From a virus, in IMG/VR virus record IMGVR_UViG_3300009164_002647, positions 1 to 36,100 of that record: a DNA stretch of 36,100 nucleotides. The stretch is one strand, 5' to 3'. This document shows, piece by piece, positions 5,466 to 36,100 of the stretch. The position numbers were made by a program, and so were the translations under genes. Under the pieces are notes generated by a model that had not been told where the DNA came from, ran no database searches, and was given only the letters and a program-made list of their open reading frames with translations. Every line of letters starts with the position of its first letter. Positions within the stretch are counted from its first letter, which is position 1.

Positions 5466-5487
5466 ATCTTAATTAGAAAGATTACAA

Positions 5488-8106: not shown

Positions 8107-8118
8107 ACTGTAAATTTC

Positions 8119-15273: not shown

Positions 15274-15277
15274 TTAG

Positions 15278-18495: not shown

Positions 18496-18591
18496 TATTT
18501 ACTTAGTAATTAAATATTTTTGAAGAAATAAATAATAAAATCTACCTAAATAGATAATTTATCTTCAAAAAATATTCTAATAAATACAGAT
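18496..18591. promoter_or_regulatory. Divergent control region with long inverted repeat and late-promoter-like motif
   Basis: This 96-base gap is the largest non-coding stretch in the island. It holds an AT-rich inverted repeat, TTTTTGAAGA (18517-18526) and TCTTCAAAAA (18562-18571), extendable to about 14 base pairs with one bulge. A smaller ATCTA/TAGAT hairpin (18540-18544 and 18551-18555) lies inside its loop. On the plus strand TAATAAATA (18578-18586) lies five bases before the ATG at 18592. On the minus strand AGTAAATA directly precedes the GTG at 18495. The repeat could be an operator or a structured leader. It has too little G+C and no clean T-run to call a terminator. Confidence 0.4.
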
Positions 18592-21562: not shown

Positions 21563-22251
21563 AAAATATAGACATAACTGACTGGACAAATTACGGAAAA
21601 TTGATAGATGGTGCATATTCAAGATCTAATCTATTATATACTCCTAAAATGAATAAAAATAAAGATATACTTTGTATGTCATGGGATATACATGACCCAT
21701 ACCAGTATAATGATGGAAAAAAAAGAGAAGGTTTAACATTAGAGTTGATGGATTTCTTTTTTGAAAGAGAAGTAAAAAATCTACAGTTTTTTAAAGATTA
21801 TGATTGGGTTCCTAAAATTTTAGATTTAGATATTTTTAATAAAAAAATATTTTTAGAATGGAATGGTGATACAGTAAATGATCTTATAAGTAAAGGATAT
21901 AACATAGATGAGATTTGTCCTACATGGAAAAATCAATTACATAATATTTTAAATGATATTTTAGATTCTGGTTATTATAAAATGAGTTTATATACACACT
22001 GTTTTTTTATTAATAATAAAGGAATATTAAAAACTTTTGATTTTTATGCCTGTGTTGAGCGCAGTTATCCTTTTATAGAAATAAAAAAATTAAAAGGAAT
22101 GATGGGAGAAGATTCTTCTGGAAGATTCCAAGAGGCTACTGTAAATGATTATGTAGATTTTGATTTTTTCTTTAAACAAGCTATTAAAAAATATATTAAA
22201 TGGCCTGATAATGCATTGATGGAATTTTATAAGGAAAAATTTAATGAATGA
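21559..22251 (+). CDS. Degenerate kinase/phosphotransferase-fold protein
   Basis: VPKILDLDIFNKKIFLEWNG (about residues 84-103) resembles the hinge strand pair of small-molecule kinases such as aminoglycoside phosphotransferase relatives. The later SGYYKMSLYTHCFFINNKG followed by KTFDFYACV occupies the place of the catalytic loop and the metal-binding Asp. The catalytic HxD Asp and loop Asn are not present; only an Asp at the DFG-like place (FDFY) remains. I infer a pseudokinase or a strongly diverged phosphotransferase. A paralogue lies at 27725. It overlaps its upstream and downstream neighbours by 4 and 8 bases. Confidence 0.45.
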   Translation: MKNIDITDWTNYGKLIDGAYSRSNLLYTPKMNKNKDILCMSWDIHDPYQYNDGKKREGLTLELMDFFFEREVKNLQFFKDYDWVPKILDLDIFNKKIFLEWNGDTVNDLISKGYNIDEICPTWKNQLHNILNDILDSGYYKMSLYTHCFFINNKGILKTFDFYACVERSYPFIEIKKLKGMMGEDSSGRFQEATVNDYVDFDFFFKQAIKKYIKWPDNALMEFYKEKFNE

Positions 22252-22819
22252 TTATATTGGTAATTGTAAAAATTTAATAGATTGGAATAAAGTTATAGAA
22301 AATTTAGAAAAATCTGATGAAGGTGAAATTTTTAACAAAAAAAGAATAGAAAAATTAATAGAAGATATATCTAAAGATGTAAAAAATTCTTCCGAAATCG
22401 AACATAATAAACAAACTTCTGTGATATGGAAAGAAAATAATTATTTTTTAGACTCGATCAATTTTAAATTATATCGACCTGGAAAAAATTACGAACATAC
22501 AATTTGTGATATAATTTCTTCTTTTTTAAAAGGAAAATATTTAACGTCGAGTATAAGTAGAGTAGATCCTGGATTCACAGTAGGAATACATAGGGATTCA
22601 ACACCAAATTTATTGTTAGATAAAACTGTTAAGAGATATGTTATTTTTATAAATCCTCCAGAAGTGGGACAAATCTTTATATTAGGAGATGAATGTTTTC
22701 ATAATGAAGAATTAGGAAATATTTATGAATGGAGAAATATGGATTTATTGCACTCTGCTGCTAACACTAGTTTTAAATCACAATATCTTTTTCATATTGA
22801 GTGTAAATTTGATATATAA
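22244..22819 (+). CDS. HxD...H oxygenase-like protein (YIGN family), no 2OG-anchoring Arg
   Basis: The N-terminus MNDYIGNCKNLIDW carries the signature of a five-member family in this window. The iron triad candidates are H116-x-D118 (GIHRDS) and H170 (LLHSAAN). In related Asp/Asn hydroxylase-like proteins an Arg ten residues after the distal His binds 2-oxoglutarate; here that position is Q180, so cosubstrate binding may differ or activity may be lost. VDPGFTVGIH and ILGDECFHN are shared with the next gene. The start overlaps the kinase-like gene by 8 bases. Confidence 0.7.
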   Translation: MNDYIGNCKNLIDWNKVIENLEKSDEGEIFNKKRIEKLIEDISKDVKNSSEIEHNKQTSVIWKENNYFLDSINFKLYRPGKNYEHTICDIISSFLKGKYLTSSISRVDPGFTVGIHRDSTPNLLLDKTVKRYVIFINPPEVGQIFILGDECFHNEELGNIYEWRNMDLLHSAANTSFKSQYLFHIECKFDI

Positions 22820-22822
22820 ATA
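22815..22822 (+). promoter_or_regulatory. T4-type late-promoter-like TATAAATA before 22846
   Basis: An exact TATAAATA overlaps the stop codon of the preceding gene, 23 bases before the ATG at 22846. A GAGG ribosome site follows at the right distance from that ATG. The geometry (motif, short leader, ribosome site) suits a T4-like late promoter inside the block, so the second oxygenase gene and the genes after it may be expressed separately. Chance occurrence in AT-rich DNA cannot be excluded. Confidence 0.4.
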
Positions 22823-22845
22823 TTTTTTATAATTGAGGATTTAAA

Positions 22846-23460
22846 ATGGCAACATATATTGGTAATTGTGCTGATCTAATTGATTGGAAAAAAATTACTG
22901 CTCCGTTGGATGATATAGTTTCGGATGAACTATATAACGCCGATACGATGAGACTTTATGAAAATCATTTTCTCAATAGCACTAATCAATTAAGTGATTT
23001 TTTAAAAGATCAAGTTGCTACGAGTTCAAGTCAAATAGATTATAATTTATTTTTAATCAAAGAATGGTCTTCAAAGTATAGACTAGATACGATTGGTTTT
23101 TCTTTATATAGACCTGGAAAACATTATGATGCTACAGTAGATAATATTTTAATAAAACTATTAGGAGGTAATATTACTACTACATCAATAAGTAGATTAG
23201 ATCCTGGCTATAATGTACCTATCCATGAAGATTATACTAATATAAAAGAACCAAACTATGATCCTAATAAAAAAGTTTGTAGATATGTTATTTTTATTAC
23301 TCCTCCAGAAACTGGACAATTCTTTACATTAGGAGATGAATGTTTTCATAATATAAAAATTGGCGAAATCTATAAATGGGATCGTCCACAACAACTACAT
23401 TGCGCTGCTAATGCTAGTTATAAGATAAATTACCTTTATCATTTACAAGTAGAATATTAA
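22846..23460 (+). CDS. HxD...H oxygenase-like protein (YIGN family), no 2OG-anchoring Arg
   Basis: A tandem paralogue of the 22244 product: MATYIGNCADLIDW at the N-terminus, LDPGYNVPIHED with H127-x-D129, TLGDECFHN, and distal H185 (QLHCAAN). The residue ten positions after H185 is N195 instead of Arg. Residues 130-142 form a short insert rich in Asn and Lys relative to the other members. It has its own GAGG ribosome site and a late-promoter-like motif upstream. The SDR gene starts 4 bases after its stop. Confidence 0.7.
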   Translation: MATYIGNCADLIDWKKITAPLDDIVSDELYNADTMRLYENHFLNSTNQLSDFLKDQVATSSSQIDYNLFLIKEWSSKYRLDTIGFSLYRPGKHYDATVDNILIKLLGGNITTTSISRLDPGYNVPIHEDYTNIKEPNYDPNKKVCRYVIFITPPETGQFFTLGDECFHNIKIGEIYKWDRPQQLHCAANASYKINYLYHLQVEY

Positions 23461-23464
23461 AAAT

Positions 23465-24289
23465 ATGAATGATTTATCTGGATTAACGGCATTAGTTACT
23501 GGCGGCGGCCAAAATATAGGATTAGGAATCTCGAAAGCTTTGGCAAAACGAGGTGCTAATATTATTGTAGCACAGCGTTCAAAAGAAATAGCAAACGATT
23601 GTGCTAAGATGATATCTAACAATTATGGAGTAAAATCTATTGCGATATCGTGTGATTTAACAAAACAAAACGATATAGACATGTTATTTAAAGAATCCCA
23701 ATTATATTTTGAAAAAATAGACATTTTAGTTAACGGAGTTGGTGGAAGATTGGGAATTGATTCTATTAAAATAGAAGATCTAACACTAGATCAAATAAAT
23801 GATAGCATGGATTTAAATTTTAAAACTGCTTTTTTATGTATGAAATCGGTTTTTCCGTTGATGAAAAAACAGAATTTTGGAAGAATTATTAATGTAACAA
23901 GCCATATCACTGAAGGTTTCCATGCCTATAGTGCTCAATACAATATAAGTAAACAGGCATTAGTTAGTCTTACAAAAACAGCAGCAGTTGAATGGGGAAA
24001 ATATAATATTACAGTTAATGCTATATGTCCTGCTGTAGGTAATGAGAAAATTAAAGTATTAGAAGGCACAGATTTACACAACCTAATACTTAAAATGATA
24101 CCCACGGGACACTTATCTACTTCTGAAGATGATGTTGGATCTATAGTTTCATGGTTAGCAAGTAAAGAGTCAAGATCTATTACAGGTACAATTCAATATG
24201 TAGATGGCGGCGTACATATAAATGGTTTAGGTTCAGATGGCGATAAAACTTTTCACGAAGCTATTAAAAAAACAACACGAGTGCCATAA
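23465..24289 (+). CDS. Short-chain dehydrogenase/reductase (SDR)
   Basis: The classical SDR layout is complete. T12-G-G-G-x3-G-x-G (VTGGGQNIGLG) binds the dinucleotide, and CDLTKQND near residue 63 is the adenine-ring loop. VNGVGG replaces NNAG at residues 89-94. S146 (NVTSHI), Y159 and K163 (QYNISK) form the catalytic set, and the C-terminus has the usual ITGTIQYVDGG. An Arg at R38 after the second strand hints at an NADP preference. It would oxidise or reduce a hydroxyl/carbonyl. Sitting between HxD oxygenase-like genes, it may process a hydroxylated product. Its frame ends 1 base before the next start. Confidence 0.92.
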   Translation: MNDLSGLTALVTGGGQNIGLGISKALAKRGANIIVAQRSKEIANDCAKMISNNYGVKSIAISCDLTKQNDIDMLFKESQLYFEKIDILVNGVGGRLGIDSIKIEDLTLDQINDSMDLNFKTAFLCMKSVFPLMKKQNFGRIINVTSHITEGFHAYSAQYNISKQALVSLTKTAAVEWGKYNITVNAICPAVGNEKIKVLEGTDLHNLILKMIPTGHLSTSEDDVGSIVSWLASKESRSITGTIQYVDGGVHINGLGSDGDKTFHEAIKKTTRVP

Positions 24290-24290
24290 A

Positions 24291-24842
24291 ATGGAAAATG
24301 TTTTATTTTTAGGACAATTTAATGAAATAAATTGGAATGATATATTGGAGGATTTAGAAAATAAAAAAGGTATTAGTATAAATCCTGATTTTTCTAAATG
24401 GAATTTAAATACACCAGGATACTTGCAAATTTATAAAATATGGAAAGATGCTAAATTTAATTCTAATGCTATTGAATGGATAAATTATTATCCCGAAGAT
24501 CACTATCCGACATCTGTTGTAGACTCAATAGCAAGATTTTTAAATGTAATTCCTTTACGATCTTGGATCAGTCAAATCAATCCTGGATATTTTGCTCCAT
24601 GGCATTGGGATGTAGACGATAATGAAACTGAATATTTAAAATTAGGAACGCCAATAAGGTATAGTTGTTTTATAGAATCTCCTTCGCATGGCCATATATT
24701 TATAATTGGAAATGATTATCTTTACAATCAAGATCAAGGGAATTTATATCAATGGATAGATTATAAAGAATGGCATAGTGGGATAAATGCCGGAATGGTT
24801 CCAAAATATATGTTTCATTTAATTGGAATCAAACGTAGTTAA
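24291..24842 (+). CDS. HxD...H oxygenase-like protein (YIGN family, divergent), Lys at anchor position
   Basis: I start this gene at the ATG at 24291, one base after the SDR stop; an upstream in-frame ATG at 24237 would lie inside the SDR gene and adds no family signature. The N-terminus MENVLFLGQFNEINW is a divergent form of the YIGN signature. The triad is H105-x-D107 (PWHWDV) and H162 (EWHSGIN); the residue ten after H162 is K172, which might replace the usual Arg as a carboxylate anchor. NPGYFAPWH and HIFIIGND match the sister proteins. Its 3' end overlaps a convergent minus-strand family member by 24 bases. Confidence 0.7.
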   Translation: MENVLFLGQFNEINWNDILEDLENKKGISINPDFSKWNLNTPGYLQIYKIWKDAKFNSNAIEWINYYPEDHYPTSVVDSIARFLNVIPLRSWISQINPGYFAPWHWDVDDNETEYLKLGTPIRYSCFIESPSHGHIFIIGNDYLYNQDQGNLYQWIDYKEWHSGINAGMVPKYMFHLIGIKRS

Positions 24843-25346
24843 TTGTAATGTGTATCTATTGTCGTATCCAATATTAACGCACCCATGATAACACAGTGGA
24901 TCTACCCATTGATATAAATCTCCTGCTTTATAATTTGTAATAATATTATCTTCCCAAACAAAAATATGTCCTGGTTTAAAATCTTCTAGAAACATAGTAT
25001 ATCTTTTTGGATTTTTAATGTCTATTAAATGCGGATCGAAATGCATCGGTTGCATTTGTCCCGGTAATAATTTAATTATCCACCAAAGAATCTGTCTATT
25101 GTCATTTGGCAATTTAGGCAATACTATATTAAATTCTTTCATATCATTGGATTTTTCATTAAACTGCTGGAAGTAATGATTTGATTGACTATAACCTTCT
25201 CTAGCCCGTTCTAACGCTTCTTCCAATAATGGATTATCTTTCCATCTATACGGTTGCCATACAGGTGTTGTGTCTCCATTGTGAGATTTTATATGACTCA
25301 TTAAATTTTCAGTTATTAATTCTTTATAATTGCCAATATATATCAT
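24819..25346 (-). CDS. Fe(II)/2OG oxygenase-like protein (YIGN family), complete motif set
   Basis: The N-terminus MIYIGNYKELIT is the family signature. The triad is H102-x-D104 (PMHFDP) and H154 (CYHGCVN), and R164 lies exactly ten residues after the distal His, so a full 2-oxoglutarate site is predicted. LPGQMQPMH and KPGHIFVWED match the sister protein at 25353. It is the last gene of the minus block that starts at 27696 and lies tail to tail with its paralogue at 24291. Confidence 0.78.
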   Translation of the reverse strand: MIYIGNYKELITENLMSHIKSHNGDTTPVWQPYRWKDNPLLEEALERAREGYSQSNHYFQQFNEKSNDMKEFNIVLPKLPNDNRQILWWIIKLLPGQMQPMHFDPHLIDIKNPKRYTMFLEDFKPGHIFVWEDNIITNYKAGDLYQWVDPLCYHGCVNIGYDNRYTLQLTTFDSN

Positions 25347-25352
25347 CTTTTT

Positions 25353-25844
25353 TTACTCGTAAGTAGCACATTGAAAAGTTAGTCTTGGGCTATAACCAAT
25401 ATTAGACGCTCCGTGTATTATATTTGGATCATCATAAACCCACATGTCTCCTAGTTTATAGTCGGTAATAAATGTTTTATCATATATGAATATATGACCA
25501 GGTTGATAATCTTGTAAAGGCATCCAATATCTAATATAATTAGTTTTATCTGGTAAAAACACATCTTTATGCATCGGCATAAAATTTCCTGGAGTCATTT
25601 TTATGAACCACCATTGCTCGTATCCTTTTGTTTGAAAAGGAAGTTTTACTTTAAATGGAAAACTACGAGAGTCATATGAATGCCAATATGTTTTTGTTAA
25701 ATCGTAACCACATTCTGATGCTATACGAAATTCTTCTGTATCAGGATTTTCGCTTTTTCCTGGTCTCTCAACGCCATCGTTTGACATTATATAATCTACC
25801 CATCTTGGATCTATCCAATTTTTAAAATTTCCTATAAATTTCAT
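25353..25844 (-). CDS. Fe(II)/2OG oxygenase-like protein (YIGN family), complete motif set
   Basis: The N-terminus MKFIGNFKNWID is the family signature. The triad is H92-x-D94 (PMHKDV) and H144 (IIHGASN), with R154 ten residues later as 2-oxoglutarate anchor. At 163 aa it is nearly a bare double-stranded beta-helix. MTPGNFMPMH and QPGHIFIYD are shared with the 24819 product. The gene follows directly on the larger oxygenase gene (sharing one base at 25844) and precedes its paralogue by 6 bases, so three oxygenases are made from one message. Confidence 0.78.
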   Translation of the reverse strand: MKFIGNFKNWIDPRWVDYIMSNDGVERPGKSENPDTEEFRIASECGYDLTKTYWHSYDSRSFPFKVKLPFQTKGYEQWWFIKMTPGNFMPMHKDVFLPDKTNYIRYWMPLQDYQPGHIFIYDKTFITDYKLGDMWVYDDPNIIHGASNIGYSPRLTFQCATYE

Positions 25845-26650
25845 TAGTAACTCTCTAAATGATCTATATTTAATTTTTTTCTAAATGAATCTGAAAATTT
25901 ACCATCAATTCTTAATCCGTAACTTTGCTCTATTATTTTTTCTCCACCATGCCAATCTTGATCATTCCACCATGCTGCTCTGGTATTTAGATAAATTTTA
26001 TTTTTTGTATTAGGGTCCCATAAGTAAAATGCTTTTTTTGTATTTGGTCTAATATGTATAAATTCATTTCTATGTAATGTATACGTTTGGTTATTTCCTT
26101 TATTTCCATCAAAATCTCTATGCTCAAATGGTATACCATCAGCTTCGCAATGAAAAAATATTACTCTTCCTATACTGTCAAAGATATTATCTTCTATCAT
26201 TTTCTCTACCCACTTAACAACATTTGGAAAATAAGCGGCTTCTTCCGTTAGTTTTCTTGGAGATGATCTTTCATCCCAACTACCTTGTTCCCATAAGAAG
26301 TAATAGATGTAAGGATCATATGCTCCCATAGCCATTTTTATATATCTAGTAAATTTATTCCTAATTCTAAAATCATGGAAGTCTTTATATAAATCAATAC
26401 CTCCTTTTTTTACAGGATTATCATCAGGGAGGGCTAAGAATTCTTCTATTGCTTTATAAATTGGTTTCCAGTGTATATTATAACTCATGTCTTTAAAATC
26501 AAAACCTGGTTTCATCCATGTACCTTCTTTAGCAAACTCTCTAGATTCGCTAAATCCTCTATATATTTCTGGTTGTAATTTTTCAAAGGTGTCCATGTCT
26601 ATATATGGTTCTATATCAAAATAAGGTTGATTATTAATCCCCTTAATCAT
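25844..26650 (-). CDS. Larger Fe(II)/2OG oxygenase-like protein
   Basis: The C-terminal third holds an HxD...H site: H177-x-D179 (FEHRDFDG) and H234 (QDWHGGE), with an Arg 13 residues later (R247, GLRIDG) as possible 2-oxoglutarate anchor. FIHIRPNTKKAFYLWD and IYLNTRAAWW look like the intervening beta strands. The first 160 residues form an additional domain rich in aromatic residues, with no family I recognise. It belongs to the same broad fold as the YIGN proteins but lacks their N-terminal signature. It overlaps the radical-SAM gene at 26647 by 4 bases. Confidence 0.68.
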   Translation of the reverse strand: MIKGINNQPYFDIEPYIDMDTFEKLQPEIYRGFSESREFAKEGTWMKPGFDFKDMSYNIHWKPIYKAIEEFLALPDDNPVKKGGIDLYKDFHDFRIRNKFTRYIKMAMGAYDPYIYYFLWEQGSWDERSSPRKLTEEAAYFPNVVKWVEKMIEDNIFDSIGRVIFFHCEADGIPFEHRDFDGNKGNNQTYTLHRNEFIHIRPNTKKAFYLWDPNTKNKIYLNTRAAWWNDQDWHGGEKIIEQSYGLRIDGKFSDSFRKKLNIDHLESY

Positions 26651-27696
26651 GGGTATCTCCTATATTTTTCAGGAATTAAATCTGGCAAAGGTAATCCTTT
26701 ATTTAATAATGCATCTCTTAAAATAACTTGATGTACTAGAGGAGAAATTGGATATCCTGGCAATATATCTGCCCACGCTTCTGTTTGTATTTCTTCTAAA
26801 TCTATAGTTCTAGCATCAGGCCATTGTATAAGTTTTACAAAAACGCCATTAATTAAAAATGGATAATGTGCCCTAATACCACTTTTTTCTAATGGAATAA
26901 TAGACCAGTTGTTTTTATATGCTATTTCCTTTGTCTTTTGCACTAATTGGCTTAGATAAATTTGTGGTTGTTTTGGATTTCTACCTATATCAGCACTACA
27001 TCTTATCCTAAAATTTGCGGATGTTTTTTTATAAAGTTCTTGTATTTCTTTTAGGCAATATTCCATTTGTGACATATCGTCTAATGTATAACTAATATCT
27101 TTTATTGTTAATCCTAGTTTAATACAATTTTCAATACCTTCTACTTGCTTTTTTCTTATTTTTAACCCGTGATAATCTGGATGATTTAATCCAATAGTCC
27201 AAATTAGTTGTTCTATCTCGGTAAATTTTTTAGCATAATCTAAATCAGATAATCTAACCCCATTTGAAAGTATTATTGTTCGTCTAGGTTGTATAGGTAA
27301 TTTGAAAACAGAATTAATTAATATATCCAAATCTTTTCTCATAGTTGGTTCTGCACCAGCTAATGCTAATCCGTATCCGTCATTTTCCCAAGACATTATT
27401 TGATCTAATATTGCATCGATTGATCTATCTTTAGACATATTATCTGGTACTTGATAACAGTGTTGACATTTAAGATTGCAATGATTTGTTATATCTATAA
27501 AATAACCTTTTGGTAAATCTATTTTATATTTGTAATTTAAATAAAACTCGGCATCGGGCTCTATTAAATTTTCGCTATAACCATGGACCGGGCAATTTTT
27601 TCCAATCCATATTTCATCGTTTTTTTCAAATTTTGTTCCAGAAATATGTCGATAACAATATTCACATAATGTCATAGTATCATTTAATTTTAACAT
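26647..27696 (-). CDS. Radical SAM protein with N-terminal zinc-ribbon-like motif (COG1964/Tes-like, family E)
   Basis: An N-terminal C11-x2-C14 ... C35-P-x-H38-G motif precedes the radical-SAM cluster C73-x3-C77-x2-C80 (HCNLKCQHC) and AGAEPTMRKDL, a variant of GGEPTxR. The C..C...CPxHG plus core layout is that of COG1964-type radical-SAM proteins, which include tetraether lipid synthases and related methylases. Those are usually 450 aa or longer, so this 349 aa protein lacks the usual C-terminal extension. It leads a minus block with three oxygenases. CATAAATA (27703-27710) lies six bases before the ATG and no ribosome site is seen. Confidence 0.8.
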   Translation of the reverse strand: MLKLNDTMTLCEYCYRHISGTKFEKNDEIWIGKNCPVHGYSENLIEPDAEFYLNYKYKIDLPKGYFIDITNHCNLKCQHCYQVPDNMSKDRSIDAILDQIMSWENDGYGLALAGAEPTMRKDLDILINSVFKLPIQPRRTIILSNGVRLSDLDYAKKFTEIEQLIWTIGLNHPDYHGLKIRKKQVEGIENCIKLGLTIKDISYTLDDMSQMEYCLKEIQELYKKTSANFRIRCSADIGRNPKQPQIYLSQLVQKTKEIAYKNNWSIIPLEKSGIRAHYPFLINGVFVKLIQWPDARTIDLEEIQTEAWADILPGYPISPLVHQVILRDALLNKGLPLPDLIPEKYRRYP

Positions 27697-27702
27697 TATT
27701 GG

Positions 27703-27710
27703 TATTTATG
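27703..27710 (-). promoter_or_regulatory. Late-promoter-like CATAAATA six bases before 27696 start
   Basis: On the minus strand CATAAATA matches the T4 late consensus TATAAATA at seven of eight positions and is followed by six bases and the ATG. With T4 spacing the transcript would start at or next to the ATG. The same close spacing appears at 11517, 11557 and 18592, which argues against pure coincidence, but function is inferred. Confidence 0.4.
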
Positions 27711-27724
27711 ATAAATTAGTTTAT

Positions 27725-28438
27725 ATGAAAACATTTAGAAATTTAAAATACAAATATTATTATAATACTGTTCCTGGAGAATCTTCTTGGAGGAATAATT
27801 TAATTTATACAAGTCTAGTGTCAGAAGATTTTAAAGTATTTGTACAATGGTATTATAACGATGGAGTATATCATGCTGGACAAAATCAAGTAGTAGATCC
27901 TGCACTTATGGATGAAAAATGGCAAAGAGAAATAAAATTTTTATCTTTAATGGAAAAACATTATCCAGATATGATTCCTAAAATATTACATATTAATCAA
28001 AAAGAAAAGAAAATATATTTAGAAATAGATGGTGTAGATTTCTGGCAACGTAGTTTAGACAGTAATTCTAGTTTTGATAAAATCTTGCCTAATTGGCAAG
28101 AGCAAATGCTTGATATAATTAAAGCACATAGAACTCTTGGTTTATACAAATATTCTATGCATCCTAGTAGTTATTTTATAATAGATGGTAAACTTAAAAG
28201 TATTAATTACTTTTTTACATACAATGAATTAGAATCTCAGATATCAATTAAAGATGTTGAAAGCCATATACATAGTAACAGACAGATAGAAATAAAAAAA
28301 CATCTAGATAAATTGGGAATTAAATGGGACATACCTCAATCTTTTGAAACACTAAATCAATTATGCTGGGAAAGTTTTAGAAAAAATTATCCTGAAGAAT
28401 TTATTGAGAAAGTTAAAAATATAGCATGTACAAAATAA
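27725..28438 (+). CDS. Degenerate kinase-fold protein, paralogue of 21559
   Basis: MIPKILHINQKEKKIYLEIDG (about residues 82-102) lines up with VPKILDLDIFNKKIFLEWNG in the 21559 product. GLYKYSMHPSSYFIIDGKL followed by KSINYFFTYNE lines up with its catalytic-loop region. Here even the DFG-like Asp is gone (INYF), so the usual metal ligands are missing. An LPNWQEQMLDI / CPTWKNQLHNI segment precedes the loop in both. I infer a pseudokinase-like scaffold. It opens a plus block, 28 bases from the divergent radical-SAM gene, and overlaps the next gene by 13 bases. Confidence 0.45.
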   Translation: MKTFRNLKYKYYYNTVPGESSWRNNLIYTSLVSEDFKVFVQWYYNDGVYHAGQNQVVDPALMDEKWQREIKFLSLMEKHYPDMIPKILHINQKEKKIYLEIDGVDFWQRSLDSNSSFDKILPNWQEQMLDIIKAHRTLGLYKYSMHPSSYFIIDGKLKSINYFFTYNELESQISIKDVESHIHSNRQIEIKKHLDKLGIKWDIPQSFETLNQLCWESFRKNYPEEFIEKVKNIACTK

Positions 28439-28992
28439 TACCTTGGTCTCCTTCTTTAGATTTAAAAGAATTTTATGCTAATGCAGCATCTAGAGGATTT
28501 GAAAATAACGCCAATCAAAAGATGTTAGTAGACTCGTTTAATACTGAACGTGAAAAGCAAGTTTGGATTTTGTATTGCGGTGATACTGCTGTCGGCAGTG
28601 TTGCTGCCCATAGTTTTGATAATGTAATGGGTAAAAATAGTTATAGGATTGCTGCTCGTACTTGTGTGTTTACTGATTTATTATCTGGAAATTACAGAAA
28701 CGCCTTACGAGGTATTAGTTGTATCACTAAAAATCAAAACCCAACAGCACAATTTTTAATCCCTACTTGTATTAATTGGGCACCTTCGGGGGCTAACTTA
28801 TACATTACTACTAATGAAAGTGAAGTTGGAACACAACGACTAGTTCATCGAATTTTTGGGCCATCTATGGAAAAAACAGGACAGATGAAACGCATTAAAG
28901 ATGTTGAATATAGGGGTGCATTACAGACAGTTTGGCAGTTATTTCCGGATAAATTTTTTGAAATTCTAAATAAATATCCTCAATGGGAATAA
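28426..28992 (+). CDS. Possible GNAT-like acyltransferase
   Basis: QVWILYCGDTAVGSVAAHSFDN (about residues 45-66) followed by RIAARTCVFTD resembles the beta2-beta4 strands of GNAT acyltransferases. The acetyl-CoA pyrophosphate loop (Q/R-x2-G-x-G/A) is not clear, so the assignment is tentative. The protein is soluble, 188 aa, and ends in a Trp-rich helix (LQTVWQLFPDKFF). It starts 13 bases before the end of the kinase-like gene. The line at 28681 is 19/60 G+C, somewhat above that of the radical-SAM genes. Confidence 0.4.
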   Translation: MYKIIPWSPSLDLKEFYANAASRGFENNANQKMLVDSFNTEREKQVWILYCGDTAVGSVAAHSFDNVMGKNSYRIAARTCVFTDLLSGNYRNALRGISCITKNQNPTAQFLIPTCINWAPSGANLYITTNESEVGTQRLVHRIFGPSMEKTGQMKRIKDVEYRGALQTVWQLFPDKFFEILNKYPQWE

Positions 28993-28995
28993 ATA
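28988..28995 (+). promoter_or_regulatory. Late-promoter-like AATAAATA with ribosome site before 29014
   Basis: AATAAATA overlaps the stop of the preceding gene and is followed by AGAGGAG (29001-29007), a strong ribosome-binding site six bases before the ATG at 29014. This is the normal arrangement expected for a phage late gene and contrasts with the leaderless-looking starts elsewhere in the island. Confidence 0.4.
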
Positions 28996-29013
28996 GTATT
29001 AGAGGAGAAAACT

Positions 29014-29943
29014 ATGAATTACTCTAAATTTCTAGAAACTATTTCTGATGTGATATATCTAGCTCCATCACGTTGCGGTAGAACTTTTTATGAATGTCGC
29101 ATTAAGGAAAATGAATCAAATATATCTGTTAGGTTTATTTTTACACAAAAATATATTGATTCCGATCATAGACTAAGAAAAGATAGACTTTTTCCTGATT
29201 GCTTAAAGATTCATGAACAGTGGCATCAAACGGGCATGGCTATTGGAACATTAGAGTATTTTTTAATAGAAAACAATATTCCTTATACAATCAATGATGA
29301 AAACGTAGAAGAATATGTTGAAGTTTTCATTGATTCAAATAACATTGAAAATGCAAGAATAAGTATAGACAAATATACCCATCATAATCATACTAATCGC
29401 GGATTTGATATATCTACTCCGGTTGATGATATTACTTTTGATAAAATAAACAAGATGATTGATGATTTTATGATTGAACATCCTGATAATTATAAAATAG
29501 TAATTACAGATAATGAAACAATTGAAAATTTATACACCTTATCTACTACTACAATGTTAGCAACTACCCAAAATTATGATTTGAAACAACAGCAAATGAT
29601 GGCTCCGTTGATAGTATCAATTCCTTCTAAAACAGTAAACAAAAGAGATTTTTACAATACAGGAAGATTATATTGCAAGATCGGGTTAACTGCACACGAT
29701 GCGGGATATCATACAGGGTATAATAATTGTTTTAATTATGAAGATCCGAGATTTAAGCGAGTTGAAGATGTACTTCATATGAAATTTAATGAAATAGATC
29801 ACGAAAATTATGTGCTAAGATGCTTTATTTCTATAGGTAAAAGATACGACTACTCAAAAGCATTTAATTGGCATCCGTTTGAAACTAGAATCATAACTAG
29901 CAGACCAAAATTATCAAAGGAATTTATAAAAGTTGAAGCATAA
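29014..29943 (+). CDS. Unknown protein, C-terminal part possibly nitroreductase-like
   Basis: The first 130 residues are unassigned. From about residue 140 the pattern DKINKMIDDFM, YKIVITDNETIENLY, QQQMMAPLIVSIPSK and then LYCKIGLTAHDAGYHTGYNN follows the order of elements in nitroreductase-family flavoproteins, where the last segment is the helix ending in a G-x-G turn. A final FISIGKRYD would match the terminal strand. The Arg-rich FMN-binding start of true nitroreductases is missing or replaced by PSRCGRTFYE near residue 18. The call is inference only. It has a strong GAGGAG ribosome site. Confidence 0.35.
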   Translation: MNYSKFLETISDVIYLAPSRCGRTFYECRIKENESNISVRFIFTQKYIDSDHRLRKDRLFPDCLKIHEQWHQTGMAIGTLEYFLIENNIPYTINDENVEEYVEVFIDSNNIENARISIDKYTHHNHTNRGFDISTPVDDITFDKINKMIDDFMIEHPDNYKIVITDNETIENLYTLSTTTMLATTQNYDLKQQQMMAPLIVSIPSKTVNKRDFYNTGRLYCKIGLTAHDAGYHTGYNNCFNYEDPRFKRVEDVLHMKFNEIDHENYVLRCFISIGKRYDYSKAFNWHPFETRIITSRPKLSKEFIKVEA

Positions 29944-29946
29944 AAT

Positions 29947-30246
29947 ATGTTAAAAGTAAGATATATTTCTATAATTTTGGACTCAAAGGCCCCAAGATTT
30001 TTTATTCATGATTCTGATTTAATAAAGTTAATTCATAGAGAATACATTGATACCGGAAAAATGATTTCTATGTTTGAAACTATATCTGATAATGATCGTC
30101 GCAAAGAAGAAATTTTTATTTTCAAATCAGAAAAAGATTATGAAGATTTTAAAAATAATGAAATAATAGCCTATATCTACAAAGTTAGGCTATTATATAA
30201 TATTCATTATCATATTGATCATGCAGTAAAAATAGAAGAAATTTAA
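29947..30246 (+). CDS. Small unknown protein, 99 aa
   Basis: I recognise no family. The protein is charged, with an alpha/beta pattern (VRYISIILDSK, KEEIFIFKSEKDYEDF, IIAYIYKVRLLYNI) and no membrane segment or cysteines. It begins 4 bases after the previous stop and is the last plus-strand gene before the convergent tail-fibre gene, 8 bases away. It is probably co-expressed with the 29014 gene. Confidence 0.6.
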   Translation: MLKVRYISIILDSKAPRFFIHDSDLIKLIHREYIDTGKMISMFETISDNDRRKEEIFIFKSEKDYEDFKNNEIIAYIYKVRLLYNIHYHIDHAVKIEEI

Positions 30247-30253
30247 TATTTTT

Positions 30254-31369
30254 TTAAGCTGCTGAACCGTTGTCGAGGTTAATCCAACTACTATTTTGAT
30301 ACCCCTGGAATTTATTAACGGTAGTATTATAGATTATCATACCATTTGCTGGAGTTAAGTTTCCTCTATTAGTAGTTGTATAAGAGCCAAATTGAACATA
30401 CCCACTAAATTTACCAGATCCATTTACATCTAAATGAGTACTTGGATTTGTTTTATTAATTCCTAAATAACCATCTGAAGTTATAATATGACCTATTCCT
30501 GAAGAAGGGTCAGATGTAGCCTGAGTAAAAAAGATAATTGATCCAGGTACTGCACCTGATGAAACAGATTTGTTTGGATCAACACAAAATACTATTCCTG
30601 ATGTGTTAATAAATGAATTACCATCATATCCTTTAGCTTGGAATTTACTAATAAAATCTCCAGAACTTAAAACTGTAGGAGAATTTAAAGTTCCTCTAGA
30701 TGATTTAAATTCTATTTGGGGCGATCCGTATGGTGGATTTATTGATCCATTAATAGAAATAACAGCATCGTCACTATTATTTTCACCCCAATACAACGAC
30801 AATTGATTATTATTTGACTTGCTACCAATTTTAATAATCTTATAATCTGTTGTTGGAAATGTTGATGAAGGAACATTACTATATAACGTAGAAGTAGTTA
30901 TACTGTAATCGGTTCCGTTAATAACTAAATTTTGACCATTTGCTATTTTATAAGTAGAAATATTTAAATCTGAAGTAAGTGTCCCACCATTACCACCACC
31001 TCCGGATACAGTACTCCAATTAACATCGTAATCGGTACCTGAAACTTTACTTAATACTTGACCAGTAGTTCCACCTGTTGGAATTCGTGTAGCTGATCCA
31101 GTATAACCAATTGGTCCTTGTACAGTGCTTGCTGATCCAACAAAACCAACATCACCTTGCAATCCTCTTGATCCAGCAAAACCAACATCACCTTGCGAGC
31201 CAACGAAACCAGTACCACCCCCACCGCTAGCAGTTACTACTCTTCCGCCGGACGTAGTTCCGTCGCCCACATAAAGCAATTTGGTATCAGTAGTATAGAT
31301 TAGTTCTCCTTCAGCGGGTGTAATCGTTACTCTTTCGCTATCGGTACCTCTGCGTATTTTAAGTGACAT
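30254..31369 (-). CDS. Phage tail fibre/adhesin-like structural protein
   Basis: The N-terminus LKIRRGTDSERVTITPAEGE with YTTDTKLLYVGDG is the short beta domain common at the start of phage tail fibres and structural adhesins. It is followed by a collagen-like stretch of GxY triplets (about residues 53-95: GFVGSQGDVGFAGSRG and similar) and Gly/Ser/Thr-rich beta repeats. The C-terminal NGMIIYNTTVNKFQGY motif is typical of phage fibre tips. At 371 aa it is short and has no recognisable chaperone domain. A GGAG ribosome site lies at the edge of a hairpin just upstream. It is the outermost gene of the minus phage operon, facing the island, and could be a target of island enzymes, though nothing shows this directly. 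Confidence 0.82.
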   Translation of the reverse strand: MSLKIRRGTDSERVTITPAEGELIYTTDTKLLYVGDGTTSGGRVVTASGGGGTGFVGSQGDVGFAGSRGLQGDVGFVGSASTVQGPIGYTGSATRIPTGGTTGQVLSKVSGTDYDVNWSTVSGGGGNGGTLTSDLNISTYKIANGQNLVINGTDYSITTSTLYSNVPSSTFPTTDYKIIKIGSKSNNNQLSLYWGENNSDDAVISINGSINPPYGSPQIEFKSSRGTLNSPTVLSSGDFISKFQAKGYDGNSFINTSGIVFCVDPNKSVSSGAVPGSIIFFTQATSDPSSGIGHIITSDGYLGINKTNPSTHLDVNGSGKFSGYVQFGSYTTTNRGNLTPANGMIIYNTTVNKFQGYQNSSWINLDNGSAA

Positions 31370-31380
31370 GAATAAACTCC

Positions 31381-31410
31381 TAGATCAGTTATTTTTATTT
31401 ATCTGATCTA
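31381..31410 (-). promoter_or_regulatory. Hairpin enclosing a late-promoter-like motif before the tail-fibre gene
   Basis: Two perfect 8-base arms, TAGATCAG (31381-31388) and CTGATCTA (31403-31410), flank a 14-base loop. On the minus strand the end of the first arm plus loop reads GATAAATA (31396-31403). The second arm runs directly into GGAG, the ribosome site of the fibre gene. A long read-through transcript could fold the hairpin and hamper ribosome access. A transcript starting about six bases past the motif would begin near 31390 and lack the first arm. A terminator is less likely because no T-run follows. Confidence 0.55.
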
Positions 31411-31417
31411 GAGATAC

Positions 31418-32287
31418 TTAAATCCACTTTGACTTAAATTCTTCTAGTTCACGCTTACTAAGATCAAATTTCTTAGCAATTCCGTCCTCATCACGAAGGT
31501 CTTCAAGTAGATCTAACCATTTTTCATTGCTAATTATGCGCTTTAGCAATGCTACTTCTAACTTGCTAACCTTAACAGAGTCTACAGCATAGTCTTCAAA
31601 TGCTTCGCAAGCTAATGGAAAATATGGTTTAGCAAGATCGTACATAGCACGAGCAAACTCCTGTATTTCCCACTGTGCATGGCTATCCATACGTAGACGA
31701 GCCATATGTAGAAAGTTCTTTAGGTTAGCCTTCCAATAGCACTCAGTATATCCACCTACCGGAAGGATCGCGCGAGCAGTTTCTCTAGCCAGGCCAAAGT
31801 CGTTGATATGACGTTCGTAGAGTTCATAGTTGTGATCCCACGCTCCGTGCATATCGTCAATGATGTGTTGTCTCTGGATGTCGTCGAGTTCACCCGCTCT
31901 ACCTTGCTTATTGGTTGTACTTTGAGGCTTGAGGTTCTGCGGTTCGGGTATATAGAATTCATCGGTAATGACCGAGTAACGGGCCGAATATTCATTTAAA
32001 CTTGCTGTCCTATGTCTAACTAATTGTCTCATCACAAAGATAGGGAGTTTAATATGGAATTTAACTTCACACATTTCGAAAGGAGTAGTATGCTCGTGCC
32101 GCATTAGATATCGTATTAGTCCACGATCACCTTGTACTTTCTTAGTGCCTTCACCGTAGCTAACACGGGCTGCTCGGACAATAGCATCGTCGCTGCCCAT
32201 ATGATCTACTAGTCCTACGAACCCGTGATCTAATACAGGAACATAAGACTTATCAGTATCAAAATTTATCTCATTGCGTAGTGTCAT
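31418..32287 (-). CDS. thyX: Flavin-dependent thymidylate synthase ThyX
   Basis: The ThyX signature RHRxxSxNExSxR is intact at residues 91-103 (RHRTASLNEYSAR). The enzyme makes dTMP from dUMP using FAD, NADPH and methylene-tetrahydrofolate, supplying thymidine during phage replication. Other features fit: RAARVSYG near 38 and HEHTTPFE near 64. The C-terminal ~50 residues form an extra charged helical tail. Its ATG has a GAGG ribosome site and overlaps the upstream small gene by 4 bases. ThyX is common in marine tailed phages. Confidence 0.97.
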   Translation of the reverse strand: MTLRNEINFDTDKSYVPVLDHGFVGLVDHMGSDDAIVRAARVSYGEGTKKVQGDRGLIRYLMRHEHTTPFEMCEVKFHIKLPIFVMRQLVRHRTASLNEYSARYSVITDEFYIPEPQNLKPQSTTNKQGRAGELDDIQRQHIIDDMHGAWDHNYELYERHINDFGLARETARAILPVGGYTECYWKANLKNFLHMARLRMDSHAQWEIQEFARAMYDLAKPYFPLACEAFEDYAVDSVKVSKLEVALLKRIISNEKWLDLLEDLRDEDGIAKKFDLSKRELEEFKSKWI

Positions 32288-32604
32288 TTCTTCCTCTTTA
32301 GGATTCGGTTAGTGCTCTTAATAACATCTTTTTTAAGTTTTTCAACATCGAGTCTAAAATCAATGTGTTCAATCTGCTCTTCGTGTAGCTGGAAGAATTC
32401 ATAAAGATTTCTAGGTAAATTACCATCATTTGAATTCTTATCAGCATCTTTTAGTACTACATGCCAGTTCTTACCATCTTTAAATGTAACCATAACACTA
32501 TGTAGGTAAGGCAACGGTACGGCTGAAAGATCAACATCTTCAAATATTTCAGGCCATTGGTCTACTATATTTTTATTGAGGGGCCTCTTCGTTGACTTTG
32601 CCAC
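32284..32604 (-). CDS. Small unknown phage protein
   Basis: I place the start at a GTG (32604), giving MAKSTKRPLNKNIVDQW, because the alternative ATG at 32637 adds a basic non-conserved-looking stretch and doubles the overlap with the previous gene. The middle VMVTFKDGKNWHVVLKD is a clear beta hairpin; the C-terminus is a Lys-rich helix. No enzyme motif is present. It overlaps thyX by 4 bases and lies within the minus phage operon. Function unknown. Confidence 0.65.
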   Translation of the reverse strand: MAKSTKRPLNKNIVDQWPEIFEDVDLSAVPLPYLHSVMVTFKDGKNWHVVLKDADKNSNDGNLPRNLYEFFQLHEEQIEHIDFRLDVEKLKKDVIKSTNRILKRKK

Positions 32605-33220
32605 GCGACTCTTTCTTCTTTGGCGGATCAAGATCATCCGCTATCTTCTTTAGTCTAGCTGCTTCCTTGTAAAGACGGTCAGCTTCACTACGATAGTCAC
32701 GGGCTGTCGTTAATTCCTTAGCAGGCTTTGGCTTAGTTTGATCATCAATGATGACGTCACTCTTGCTTGGCTTCTTGGTTAGGTCTTCAATCTGGATGTC
32801 CTGTGTCTTTGTTTCTGGACGATTTTTGTGTGGCATATCAGCCTTAATAGCAAGATCGTCGAGTGTAACACCCTTCTGTTCAGCAATCATAAGATTGAGT
32901 TCATCTAGCGGAATCTCATCCACTAATGATGGAGTCATGATAACACCGCTTGTAGCGACCTTAACAAGCTTTCCTGTCATATGAAGTTGTTCCAAGATGT
33001 TTGATCCGTCGCTAAAATAGCGACTCGAAAGGTGATCACCTAACTCGTTGGACTGTTGACCCTGTGGATTCTCTAACTCTGTCATTAATGTATTGTGATA
33101 CACTTCTGTTAACGAAGATGTTCCAATAACCAATGCAGAGAAAGCATCGCCGGGGAGTGTGCGATAAATCACGCACACCTTAGCCCCATTATGCTTCATC
33201 TTGCCTACATGCTTAAGCAT
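32573..33220 (-). CDS. Unknown phage operon protein with Lys/Asp-rich C-terminus
   Basis: I start at the ATG at 33220, which overlaps the stop of the preceding gene in ATGCTTAA. The longer in-frame start at 33286 gives a Leu/His-rich stretch that is the antisense-like reading of the upstream gene. Residues 1-130 (MLKHVGKMKHNGAKVCVIY, then PGDAFSALVIG) look like a folded alpha/beta domain; residues 130-215 are charged and low in hydrophobics, ending in a predicted coiled helix (SEADRLYKEAARLKK). I recognise no family. It may be a structural or assembly protein, but this is only operon context. Confidence 0.72.
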   Translation of the reverse strand: MLKHVGKMKHNGAKVCVIYRTLPGDAFSALVIGTSSLTEVYHNTLMTELENPQGQQSNELGDHLSSRYFSDGSNILEQLHMTGKLVKVATSGVIMTPSLVDEIPLDELNLMIAEQKGVTLDDLAIKADMPHKNRPETKTQDIQIEDLTKKPSKSDVIIDDQTKPKPAKELTTARDYRSEADRLYKEAARLKKIADDLDPPKKKESRGKVNEEAPQ

Positions 33221-33458
33221 CTGTAGGAGCAGCCTGTGGTGCAGTAGATTGTGGTGCAGCCGCCTGAGCAGCCTGAGCAGCAGCAAGGAATGCTTCTAAC
33301 TTGGCATATACTGTTCCAACTGGAACCATTTCGTTTGGCTTAAATGCGCCACGCTGGCTAGCAACGTCAATAATGCTCTTCATAGCAGCAAGATCGTTAA
33401 TATTTAATTCTGGGTTAGCGGCTGGGGTTTCTGCTGGGGTATTCGTCTCATCGACCAT
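33213..33458 (-). CDS. Small Ala/Gln/Pro-rich unknown phage protein
   Basis: 81 residues. The first 20 are acidic and Pro-rich, residues 20-60 form a likely helix pair (NINDLAAMKSIIDVASQRG, then VGTVYAKLEAFL), and the end is a low-complexity Ala/Gln/Pro stretch. It has an AAGGAG ribosome site and a sigma70-like promoter in the short gap upstream, so it is the first gene of a sub-operon leading to the downstream unknown genes and thyX. Function unknown. Confidence 0.75.
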   Translation of the reverse strand: MVDETNTPAETPAANPELNINDLAAMKSIIDVASQRGAFKPNEMVPVGTVYAKLEAFLAAAQAAQAAAPQSTAPQAAPTDA

Positions 33459-33483
33459 GTATGTCTCCTTTTGATGATGTATT

Positions 33484-33512
33484 ATTATATAACCGTTTTT
33501 ATTAATGGTCTA
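33484..33512 (-). promoter_or_regulatory. Sigma70-like promoter before 33458
   Basis: On the minus strand TAGACC (33507-33512), four of six matches to TTGACA, is followed by a 17-base spacer and a perfect TATAAT (33484-33489). The -35 element overlaps the end of the upstream gene. Position and spacing fit transcription of the 33458 gene by the host polymerase, as expected for early or middle phage genes. It lies in a 43-base gap between genes. Confidence 0.5.
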
Positions 33513-33795
33513 CCTTATTTTTGGCCAAGTACGGACAACCTAGCAAAAACATAGTGGACTCGTATGGATCTTCAAATGCTAAAGCATGGTATCCAACGAT
33601 CTTGTTATCGGATAACTTGGTTAGATATCCAAAGAAAAATCTAGACTTTAGATTTGTATAGATCCATTTTAGTATTGCGTCCTGCTGCTGATAGTAGCTC
33701 ATATCACCAACATCGATTGGATCTAGGTGAGGAGGTAGGAATCGTAGTCTCCTACTCTCCAACACGTTTAGCGGGAGTACCTTAAACTCTTTCAT
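33502..33795 (-). CDS. Small unknown phage protein, 97 aa
   Basis: The protein has a basic N-terminus (ESRRLRFLPPHLDPIDVGDM), a helix (YYQQQDAILKWIYTNLKSR) and strands (FFGYLTKLSDNKIVGYHALAF, split by a turn). No motif is recognised. The start shares ATGA with the stop of the VWA gene, so translation is coupled to it. Its position directly after the MoxR/VWA pair suggests a shared transcript, but not a shared function. Confidence 0.75.
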   Translation of the reverse strand: MKEFKVLPLNVLESRRLRFLPPHLDPIDVGDMSYYQQQDAILKWIYTNLKSRFFFGYLTKLSDNKIVGYHALAFEDPYESTMFLLGCPYLAKNKVDH

Positions 33796-35012
33796 TCCTT
33801 AAACTCATAGTGGCTGTATACACCAAAGGGTGGCTTGATAGTCTCATTACCATGGATGATGAACACTGTATCGCAATAATCAGGATCGCCCCAGCTACCG
33901 AACGGATAACCATCTGTAAACATGATGAACTTCTTAGGAACAAGATTCTCGTCCTTCATCATTTGCCAGTTACAATCAAAGTCAGTACCGCCACCACCCT
34001 TAGGCTCATAACTTTCAAACTCATGGATGCTGTCAGCAGTAATGTCAACGACATTGTAGATGTCAGTGTCAAAGCACCACAGCTTAATGTGGAAGTCCTT
34101 AAACTGATCCATGATGCCCTTGATCTCGCTAAGGAAGTCACGTGCCATCTTGTTAGAGATCGAACCACTCATATCAATAGCAACAGCAACGTCAATAGTA
34201 GTGTCGTAATTCATACCTGGAAGGATAGCATTAGTATGCCAACCTTTGCGTGAAGGACGCATCCAAGTATAGTCATTGCGGATAGTGCTCTGGATCTGCT
34301 GCTTGAGAAGTTCACGCCAATCAATCTTAGGCTCAGTGAGCTCGCTAATCAAACGACGCACACCTGAGGGGATATTACCAGCGGAACTCTGTGCAGCACT
34401 GATCATCGCTTCTTTCATCTCATCGCGGATCTTGCGTAGTTCATCCTTAGTATACTTCTTACGCTTGCTCTTGCCTTCCTTATCATCATCTCCTTCACCG
34501 TCTTGATCGAGATGCTGATCCAATAGTTCGCCAAGTTGCTGTAGTTGCTGTAGATCATACTTGCTGTGGATGATATCGTAGATCTCTTCAGCACTCTTGC
34601 CACGATACTTGTTATCTTGGAAGATTTTAACCTGTACAATCTTATCACCAATGCGATCGTCTACAAGGATCTGATTGATAGCATAGTCGCAAGCGATATT
34701 CCAGATGTCAGGCTCGCGATTGTTACGGCGACCCATATGATCAAATACATTGTGGAGAACCTCATGGCAAAACAGAAACTCTGTCTGCTTAGGGGTCAAC
34801 TTATCAACGAACGTAGTGTCGTAGTAAAAGTGACGACCATCAGTTGCTGCGGTATTGATATGTGGGTCGTCAGTACAATCTACCATACGTAACCGTGTAG
34901 CGAGATTACCAAAGAAACTATGACGGAGCAACAGTCCAACGCGGGCTGTAATAAGTTTCTCTTCGATTTTACGACCTTCAATACGTGGGGATTTAGCAAC
35001 TGCGGTAGCCAT
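33792..35012 (-). CDS. Putative metallopeptidase with VWA-like domain (DUF2201-type)
   Basis: H83-E-x2-H87-x3-DH (FCHEVLHNVFDH) is a zinc-metallopeptidase-type motif in the N-terminal domain. The C-terminal domain has VAVAIDMSGSIS near residue 273, the D-x-S-x-S metal-ion site of von Willebrand factor A domains, and IMFTDGYPFG for the later Asp. An acidic Asp/Glu/Lys-rich linker joins them. I start at the ATG at 35012, which has AGGAG six bases upstream; an earlier ATG at 35036 lacks this. With the adjacent MoxR ATPase it forms the known AAA+/VWA pair, used for remodelling or metal insertion in other systems. Its phage role is unknown. Confidence 0.88.
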   Translation of the reverse strand: MATAVAKSPRIEGRKIEEKLITARVGLLLRHSFFGNLATRLRMVDCTDDPHINTAATDGRHFYYDTTFVDKLTPKQTEFLFCHEVLHNVFDHMGRRNNREPDIWNIACDYAINQILVDDRIGDKIVQVKIFQDNKYRGKSAEEIYDIIHSKYDLQQLQQLGELLDQHLDQDGEGDDDKEGKSKRKKYTKDELRKIRDEMKEAMISAAQSSAGNIPSGVRRLISELTEPKIDWRELLKQQIQSTIRNDYTWMRPSRKGWHTNAILPGMNYDTTIDVAVAIDMSGSISNKMARDFLSEIKGIMDQFKDFHIKLWCFDTDIYNVVDITADSIHEFESYEPKGGGGTDFDCNWQMMKDENLVPKKFIMFTDGYPFGSWGDPDYCDTVFIIHGNETIKPPFGVYSHYEFKE

Positions 35013-35036
35013 GAGATTCTCCTGTGTTATATACAT

Positions 35037-35072
35037 ATAATAGCACAGTTAACTGGATTGTCAACTGTGCTA
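35037..35072 (-). promoter_or_regulatory. Sigma70-like promoter overlapping an inverted repeat
   Basis: On the minus strand a consensus TTGACA (35059-35064) is separated by 16 bases from TATTAT (35037-35042). The perfect 10-base arms TAGCACAGTT (35041-35050) and AACTGTGCTA (35063-35072) overlap both elements. The repeat could be an operator for a regulator, a terminator for the upstream MoxR gene, or both. A start near 35030 would give a leader of about 18 bases with the AGGAG site of the VWA gene. Confidence 0.55.
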
Positions 35073-35079
35073 GAATTGC

Positions 35080-36100
35080 TTACTGGTTAGCAGCGATCAC
35101 ATACTTGCCGAAGCGATCGTGAAACTCATCGAAGTTCTTCAACCTGCTAGGATCAATTGGTAGATCGTAGCTCGAAAGCGCAATCTTAGCACCCATAACA
35201 GTGAGCTCAGTCTCGAAGTTATCCATCATGAAGCGGAAGAAGTTGTCTGCCATCTCGTTCCAGTTAGGAACTTTCTTCTGATCAGCATCCTTAAGTTCGT
35301 AGCAGAGGGAGACAGTTAGCGAATACATCGCGCTAATCTCCTTGACCTTAAGTTCCTTAACCTTGCCCTTTAGGATGTCGGAAGGATTAGGCATACGTCC
35401 AGCAACCTTACGGTGTGCCATGAACTTTACACCAGTGCCCTCACCAACAGCGCCGCTAACTAGATCGGCAAGTGTAGCATCACCTAGATCATCGTCGAGC
35501 AACTCGCTAACGAAACTCCAAGAACGCGGCGTAGCAAACGAGCGGCTAGCAGTTTTAGGATCGAAATCGTACAAGTCCTGCTTGGCAAAGCTGATGTAAC
35601 CAACAACGTCCTTGTGGATCTTGTTAGCAACAGCCCACTGGAACCAGTCATCAAAGTCAACACGTAGTTCAAGATGTACGAAACGATTAGCAAGCGGAGC
35701 AGGCATACGATAAGTAACGCCCTTGTCTGCTTCACGGTTACCAGCAGCAACAACGATCACATTGTCGGGTAGTTTGTAAGTGCCAACTCGACGATTGAGA
35801 ACAAGCTGATAAGCAGCAGCCTGGACGCTGGGAGGAGCACTATTCATCTCGTCTAGGAACAAGATAACAACTGGATGCTTGGCAGCAAGTTCCTCAGTAG
35901 GAAGTTCTACGGGAGGCGCCCAGCTCATCGTGCTATCTGTTGAGTTAAAGTAAGGGATACCCTTGATGTCAGTTGGCTCCCAGAGCGACAAGCGCACGTC
36001 GATAACATGGGCATCCATCTCAGCACCAAGCTGATGAATAGCATCGGACTTGCCAATGCCTGGAGGGCCCCAAAGGAATACTGGACGACGCTTCTTGAAT
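35080..36100 (-). CDS. MoxR-type AAA+ ATPase, 5' truncated by window edge
   Basis: The frame is open to base 36100, so the true start is outside; the ATG at 36018 is internal. The bases beyond it encode GPPGIGKS, the Walker A motif. VVILFLDEMNSAP is Walker B, VIVVAAGNRE is sensor 1, and PLANRFVHLEL follows with the arginine region. This is the AAA_5/MoxR layout. The C-terminal ~110 residues form the helical lid and an extra helical tail. It is transcribed just before the VWA/HExxH gene, its usual partner. G+C here is much higher than in the island (the line at 35401 is 33/60). Confidence 0.9.
   Translation of the reverse strand, partial: FKKRRPVFLWGPPGIGKSDAIHQLGAEMDAHVIDVRLSLWEPTDIKGIPYFNSTDSTMSWAPPVELPTEELAAKHPVVILFLDEMNSAPPSVQAAAYQLVLNRRVGTYKLPDNVIVVAAGNREADKGVTYRMPAPLANRFVHLELRVDFDDWFQWAVANKIHKDVVGYISFAKQDLYDFDPKTASRSFATPRSWSFVSELLDDDLGDATLADLVSGAVGEGTGVKFMAHRKVAGRMPNPSDILKGKVKELKVKEISAMYSLTVSLCYELKDADQKKVPNWNEMADNFFRFMMDNFETELTVMGAKIALSSYDLPIDPSRLKNFDEFHDRFGKYVIAANQ

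Follow-up and report, generated by a model that had tools for sequence, protein, structure and literature searches.

How could a gene for a fibre-like protein, placed at the end of what looks like an early operon, be held back until late in infection? The question is raised by a 36,100-nucleotide stretch of an uncultured viral record (IMG/VR IMGVR_UViG_3300009164_002647; "the window" below means this whole stretch), in which such a gene directly follows thyX. A sequence-only reading of the gap between the two genes had proposed that a late promoter lies inside a hairpin that covers the ribosome site, and that the choice of promoter thereby times fibre synthesis. Judged by its sequence and by that of its relatives, the element is real and conserved, and its most plausible reading, for which the comparative evidence is unusually strong, is a late-promoter-in-hairpin switch of the T4 type. 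The decisive part of the sequence evidence for the hairpin is the conservation of its pairing in relatives.

The gap between thyX and the fibre-like gene

The name "tail fibre" has moderate support: the N-terminus of the protein matches the Mtd_N domain (Pfam E 3.3e-11), but its remaining PHROG matches are of unknown function. A search of the annotated phage collection with the protein gave no match, a DNA search for close annotated phages returned only thyX-level similarity to Rhodobacter and Sulfitobacter phages, and an Rfam search gave no match. An ORF at 29947-30246 converges on the fibre gene and carries near its 3' end an 11-bp perfect stem (ATAATAGCCTA/TAGGCTATTAT; 30163-30197, plus strand), a possible terminator region. 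Positions 1-18500 hold a long gene run in which two or more genes encode radical-SAM-type proteins (13104-14384 and 17110-18495; phrog_14086), unusual cargo next to fibre and thyX genes.

From the thyX stop codon through the 48-nt gap to the fibre start, the minus-strand sequence is TAA GTATCT CTAGATCAG ATAAATAAAAATAA CTGATCTAG GAGTTTATTC ATG, with CTAGATCAG and CTGATCTAG as the two arms of a stem (Table 1). The stem had been described as perfect and 8 bases long; it is perfect, but its length is 9 bp. As had also been claimed, it encloses the putative promoter box, GATAAATA, which is made up of the last base of the 5' arm and bases of the loop. To say that the second arm touches GGAG slightly understated the contact: the last base of the 3' arm is the first G of GGAG, and the stem covers one base of GGAG and two of AGGAG. 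The fold of lowest energy continues past a bulge, with two further bases paired in a UC/GA extension. The predicted fold has an energy of -12.7 kcal/mol (z -2.8; 2 of 200 shuffles were equally good), and among the 73 ATGs with a Shine-Dalgarno-like site on both strands of the window, the fibre start has the longest perfect stem overlapping that site (9 bp; next 7, 6 and 6).

Table 1. Features of the thyX/fibre locus and its upstream unit, in window coordinates
Feature	Position	Strand	Basis
Regulated gene, 371-aa fibre/adhesin-like protein, N-terminal Mtd_N	30254..31369	-	ORF; Pfam
Fibre start codon ATG	31367..31369	-	Sequence
Predicted late leader, 21 nt, start 31390, without 5' arm	31370..31390	-	T4-type spacing (inferred) and accessibility calculation
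Shine-Dalgarno GGAG (AGGAG 31377-31381)	31377..31380	-	Sequence; AGGAG invariant 11/11
3' arm CTGATCTAG	31380..31388	-	Sequence, fold; pairing kept in relatives
Loop ATAAATAAAAATAA, 14 nt	31389..31402	-	Sequence, fold
Late-promoter box GATAAATA	31396..31403	-	Invariant 11/11; box class enriched before gene starts
5' arm CTAGATCAG	31403..31411	-	Sequence, fold; expected in read-through transcripts only
thyX stop TAA	31420-31418	-	Sequence
thyX (Thy1, flavin-dependent thymidylate synthase), upstream, co-directional	31418..32287	-	Pfam Thy1 E 7e-55
Rest of presumed early operon: four small ORFs and DUF2201 metallopeptidase/VWA-like gene	32284..35012	-	ORFs, Pfam
Sigma70-type promoter TTGACA-16-TATTAT	35037..35064	-	Conserved before DUF2201 gene in relatives

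Taken alone, the box is unremarkable in AT-rich DNA: matches to TATAAATA with one mismatch number 233, against 231 expected. Exact NATAAATA occurs six times within 60 nt of gene starts where about 0.5 would be expected, and the same enrichment is strong in relatives (for example 22 versus 0.9 expected in G010), in which this class of box sits before baseplate wedge, head, tail and tail-fibre genes. NATAAATA is the late promoter of marine T4-like cyanophages (PMC2984593), and the present boxes resemble those promoters in sequence, in the class of late sigma factor and in their place before structural genes; the passages on these promoters describe no hairpin device.

Contig G001, whose sequence agrees with the window without a difference for 10.9 kb (window 20762-31628), carries a gene for a gp55-type late sigma factor (phrog_12791, E 4.5e-82; phrog_234, E 4e-25), as do G006, G016 and G017; the window itself, a fragment, has no copy. 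The two sequences diverge at window 20762 (G001 57597), with identity running to the end of G001, and the divergence could reflect a difference between strains, a recombination event or a join made in assembly. One relative, G006, carries T4-type portal, protease, capsid and polymerase genes. The PHROG profile for gp45 had no match on 14 contigs, an uninformative result in that the contigs are incomplete and the control was silent.

Pairing and sequence turnover in relatives

Relatives were gathered from IMG/VR by searches with the fibre protein and ThyX, which gave 11 distinct thyX-fibre junctions with the window's own copy counted in. A DNA pattern scan with GATCAGATAAATAAA returned mostly unrelated contigs among the matches listed and was kept out of the statistics. 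A hairpin is found at the same place in all 11 junctions, and only GATAAATA and AGGAG are invariant within the gap. The arms themselves are rewritten: CTAGATCAG/CTGATCTAG in the window becomes CTGGATCAG/CTGATCCAG in L018, by a compensated change, CTCCTGG/CCAGGAG in L144 and L004, TCCTGGATA/TATCCAGGA in L146, TCCTATATTGATAA/TTATCAATATAGGA in L147 and TCCTGATA/TATCAGGA in L154. Stem length ranges from 5 to 14 bp and loop length from 5 to 37 nt, with pairing retained throughout; in L157 (= L050) the hairpin is visible only when the end of thyX is included, because the 5' arm sits there.

The strength of this covariation was measured by an alignment-free permutation in which 5' and 3' halves were exchanged among the 11 junctions. 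Own arms pair at a mean of -15.7 kcal/mol, compared to -10.6 +/- 1.0 for swapped arms, and none of 20,000 permutations equalled the real pairing. L152 is a weak member of the set (-8.8 kcal/mol, own arm ranked seventh). Each 3'-arm position from -1 to -9 relative to AGGAG shows at least two pair types (for example A-T/G-C, or G-C/A-T/T-A) and zero broken pairs, a tally that describes pair diversity and is not an unbiased test, because register and arms were chosen by pairing. RNAalifold found no consensus structure in a MAFFT alignment of the junctions, because the arms are out of column register. The sequence-only reading had named non-conserved pairing in close relatives as grounds to reject its promoter-choice proposal. 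All 11 junctions keep pairing with differing arm sequences, and the proposal is supported, not refuted, by this comparison. Pairing has thus been conserved through sequence turnover, and selection for the hairpin is therefore hard to doubt.

What is the hairpin selected for? One alternative is translational coupling, in which ribosomes terminating on thyX melt the hairpin, such that fibre output would track thyX translation and not promoter choice. A hairpin over a downstream ribosome site is the usual layout for coupling, and in the window the 5' arm starts only 6 nt past the thyX stop, close enough for a ribosome that terminates there to reach it. The distance from stop to arm is not conserved, however, ranging from -12 (inside thyX) to +21 nt, and the 14-21 nt found in L147, L152, L144, L154 and L004 are mostly out of a terminating ribosome's reach. 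Considering also that coupling leaves the invariant GATAAATA, at the same place in 11 of 11 junctions, unexplained, we regard it as improbable. A DNA operator, in which a repressor bound to the inverted repeat would sit over the GATAAATA promoter, would account for arms that flank a promoter-like box, and upstream, across the sigma70-type promoter, there is indeed a palindrome of true operator type (35041-35072). A protein-binding site would keep its sequence and spacing, whereas here arm sequence, stem length and loop length all vary widely while pairing stays, and the operator explanation is accordingly very improbable.

The hairpin might instead be an intrinsic terminator, or protect an RNA end, between two transcription units, as a 9-bp stem in an intergenic gap would allow. 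The stem lacks a following U-run on both strands, the element is absent from a terminator scan of 30000-36100, the 3' arm always enters the Shine-Dalgarno site and the box is always within the hairpin, which leaves this possibility even slimmer. Least probable of all, to the point of being negligible, is a chance stem in an AT-rich gap: the composition does yield many weak stems (306 inverted-repeat pairs under loose criteria), but chance would not give the pairing and permutation results above, nor the weaker pairing of fibre homologues that lack an upstream thyX, in which the box is usually kept (median -7.0 kcal/mol over 35 non-redundant loci, versus -15.6; Mann-Whitney p 3e-6, uncorrected for relatedness).

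Proposed promoter choice and predicted accessibility

We consider it very probable that the thyX/fibre hairpin acts in cis to time expression, in the manner of T4 gene e and I-TevI. The fibre gene would be the last of a co-directional unit that runs about 3.7 kb in the window from a sigma70-type promoter through thyX. A promoter of the form TTGACA-N16-18-TA(N)3T precedes the DUF2201 gene in all seven contigs with this span on hand, the window included; in the window, a gene start at 35012 suits the promoter and a ribosome site better than one at 35036. Six of the seven have about 3.7 kb between promoter and fibre gene, G006 has 12 kb, and each span contains exactly one late box, the hairpin's own. 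Terminators after the promoter were sought in the same seven spans: none was found in the window's, and a weak candidate in G006 only. The promoter in the window is overlapped by a perfect 10-bp palindrome (TAGCACAGTT/AACTGTGCTA; 35037-35072, minus strand), which has a compensated change in G011 (TAGCACCGTT/AACGGTGCTA) and is absent from G005, G007, G009 and G010, where the promoter is kept. This palindrome may serve as an operator, or else as a terminator joined to the early promoter.

RNA from the sigma70-type promoter would carry both arms, fold and hide the Shine-Dalgarno region, and the fibre protein would be poorly translated from such read-through RNA. Late in infection, polymerase carrying the phage gp55-type sigma would initiate at GATAAATA inside the hairpin, near 31390, and the resulting RNA, without the 5' arm, would have an open ribosome site from which the fibre protein could be translated. 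The hairpin would be expected in early transcripts only, and the fibre-like protein should therefore be made only late. Computation shows the stem and its covariation, the invariant box and ribosome site, the geometry, the upstream promoter and a late sigma gene on an overlapping contig; we infer where late transcription starts, that early RNA reads through, that its translation is repressed and how the protein is timed.

The late start was placed 6 nt past the box, according to T4-type spacing. So placed, it drops the entire 5' arm in 11 of 11 junctions and lies between the arms in 10, the exception being L147, where it falls 3 nt inside the 3' arm; predicted late leaders are 18-29 nt long. 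Opening the 20 nt before the AUG is predicted to cost 9.2 kcal/mol in the window's read-through RNA versus 2.2 in its late RNA (nt -20 to -1), and across the junctions 8.0-17.8 versus 0.8-6.5 kcal/mol, with the late RNA lower in all 11. The effect is independent of the exact start, for offsets of 4-11.

How thoroughly would the ribosome site be masked? In the window's copy only two AGGAG bases lie within the strict stem and the Shine-Dalgarno sequence is partly paired; opening its four bases alone costs 4.0 kcal/mol in read-through and 1.4 in late RNA, a difference of 2.6. In L018 the Shine-Dalgarno is mostly unpaired and its surroundings are paired. Masking in the window's copy is thus predicted to be moderate, and the size of the repression is therefore uncertain. 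The same calculation gave 5.2-11.4 kcal/mol for T4 49, I-TevI, I-TevII and segB, compared to -3.0 to 2.8 for the other T4 late genes tested; T4 soc was weak at 0.5 kcal/mol, and T4 e was left unscored by the simple rule.

Known switches and possible wider occurrence

The sequence-only reading had compared the locus with T4 e, soc and gene 49, and correctly so: the same logic is described for these genes and for I-TevI (PMC3014915). Long early transcripts of T4 e fold over the ribosome site, while late promoters lie within the region of the 5' strand, such that late RNA lacks that strand and is well translated; the leader, which has two late promoters and a measured repression of about 100-fold, is conserved in close relatives (PMC3014915). 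The early fold over the ribosome site and the late RNA without the 5' strand are what is predicted here, for a fibre-like gene in an uncultured lineage distant from T4. In T4 soc and gene 49, likewise, a hairpin that covers the start codon or the ribosome site comes after the box (PMC3014915), but the 5' arm of soc begins just past the box, whereas in the present junctions the box either sits between the arms or overlaps the 5' arm. The phages syn9, S-PM2, PSSM2 and PSSM4 are listed in that paper only as lacking gene e (PMC3014915).

The logic is also described for I-TevI, I-TevII, I-TevIII, segB and Aeh1 mobE (PMC2988022), which share with the fibre gene, as it is read here, the situation of a late gene in an early or middle unit with its promoter inside the sequestering hairpin. 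Those genes, in contrast, encode homing endonucleases. I-TevI lies within the thymidylate synthase gene td and the fibre gene directly after thyX, a likeness that is positional only. The td and thyX enzymes are unrelated. In its sequence-testable features, the locus agrees with this class of switches: in 11 of 11 junctions the gene is immediately preceded by a late box that lies between the arms or overlaps one of them; the ribosome site is predicted to be in a helix on the long RNA in 11 of 11; and a gp55-type late sigma is provided by G001. Searches of open-access full text brought up no account of such a switch for a fibre gene or for this lineage.

Does the device occur elsewhere? Strong box-enclosing hairpins precede a fibre homologue in L071, L128, L142, L105, L017 and L020, where thyX is not upstream, and in close relatives of these loci the 5' arm is degenerate, which may represent gain and loss of the device. 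Among other boxed genes of these contigs, 5 of 38 pair at -12 kcal/mol or below over the ribosome site, compared to 0.6 expected from swaps (0 of 1,000). The five include two genes of G010, in which a late box lies in a long hairpin over the ribosome site before an HNH endonuclease gene (L367; 106486-106914, minus strand; GGTAGACCT/AGGTCTACC) and before a virion-protein-like gene (L364; 55860-56273, minus strand; TCTTCCTGCTCTAA/TTGGAGCAGGAAGA). We see about an even chance that promoter-in-hairpin switches recur across a large uncultured T4-type lineage, in which late genes that land in early operons would gain a fast-changing hairpin while box, ribosome site and pairing are kept, and in which the HNH and virion-protein-like genes of G010 would be guarded too.

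The switch has so far been known from a few T4 genes and mostly from homing endonucleases, and here it would serve a gene of the host-recognition type. The arrangement can be put as a sequence rule, NATAAATA between the arms with the 3' arm at the Shine-Dalgarno, by which late genes with delayed expression may be predicted in phages that resist cultivation. It would also offer a testable reason for the place of a virion gene at the end of an early operon.
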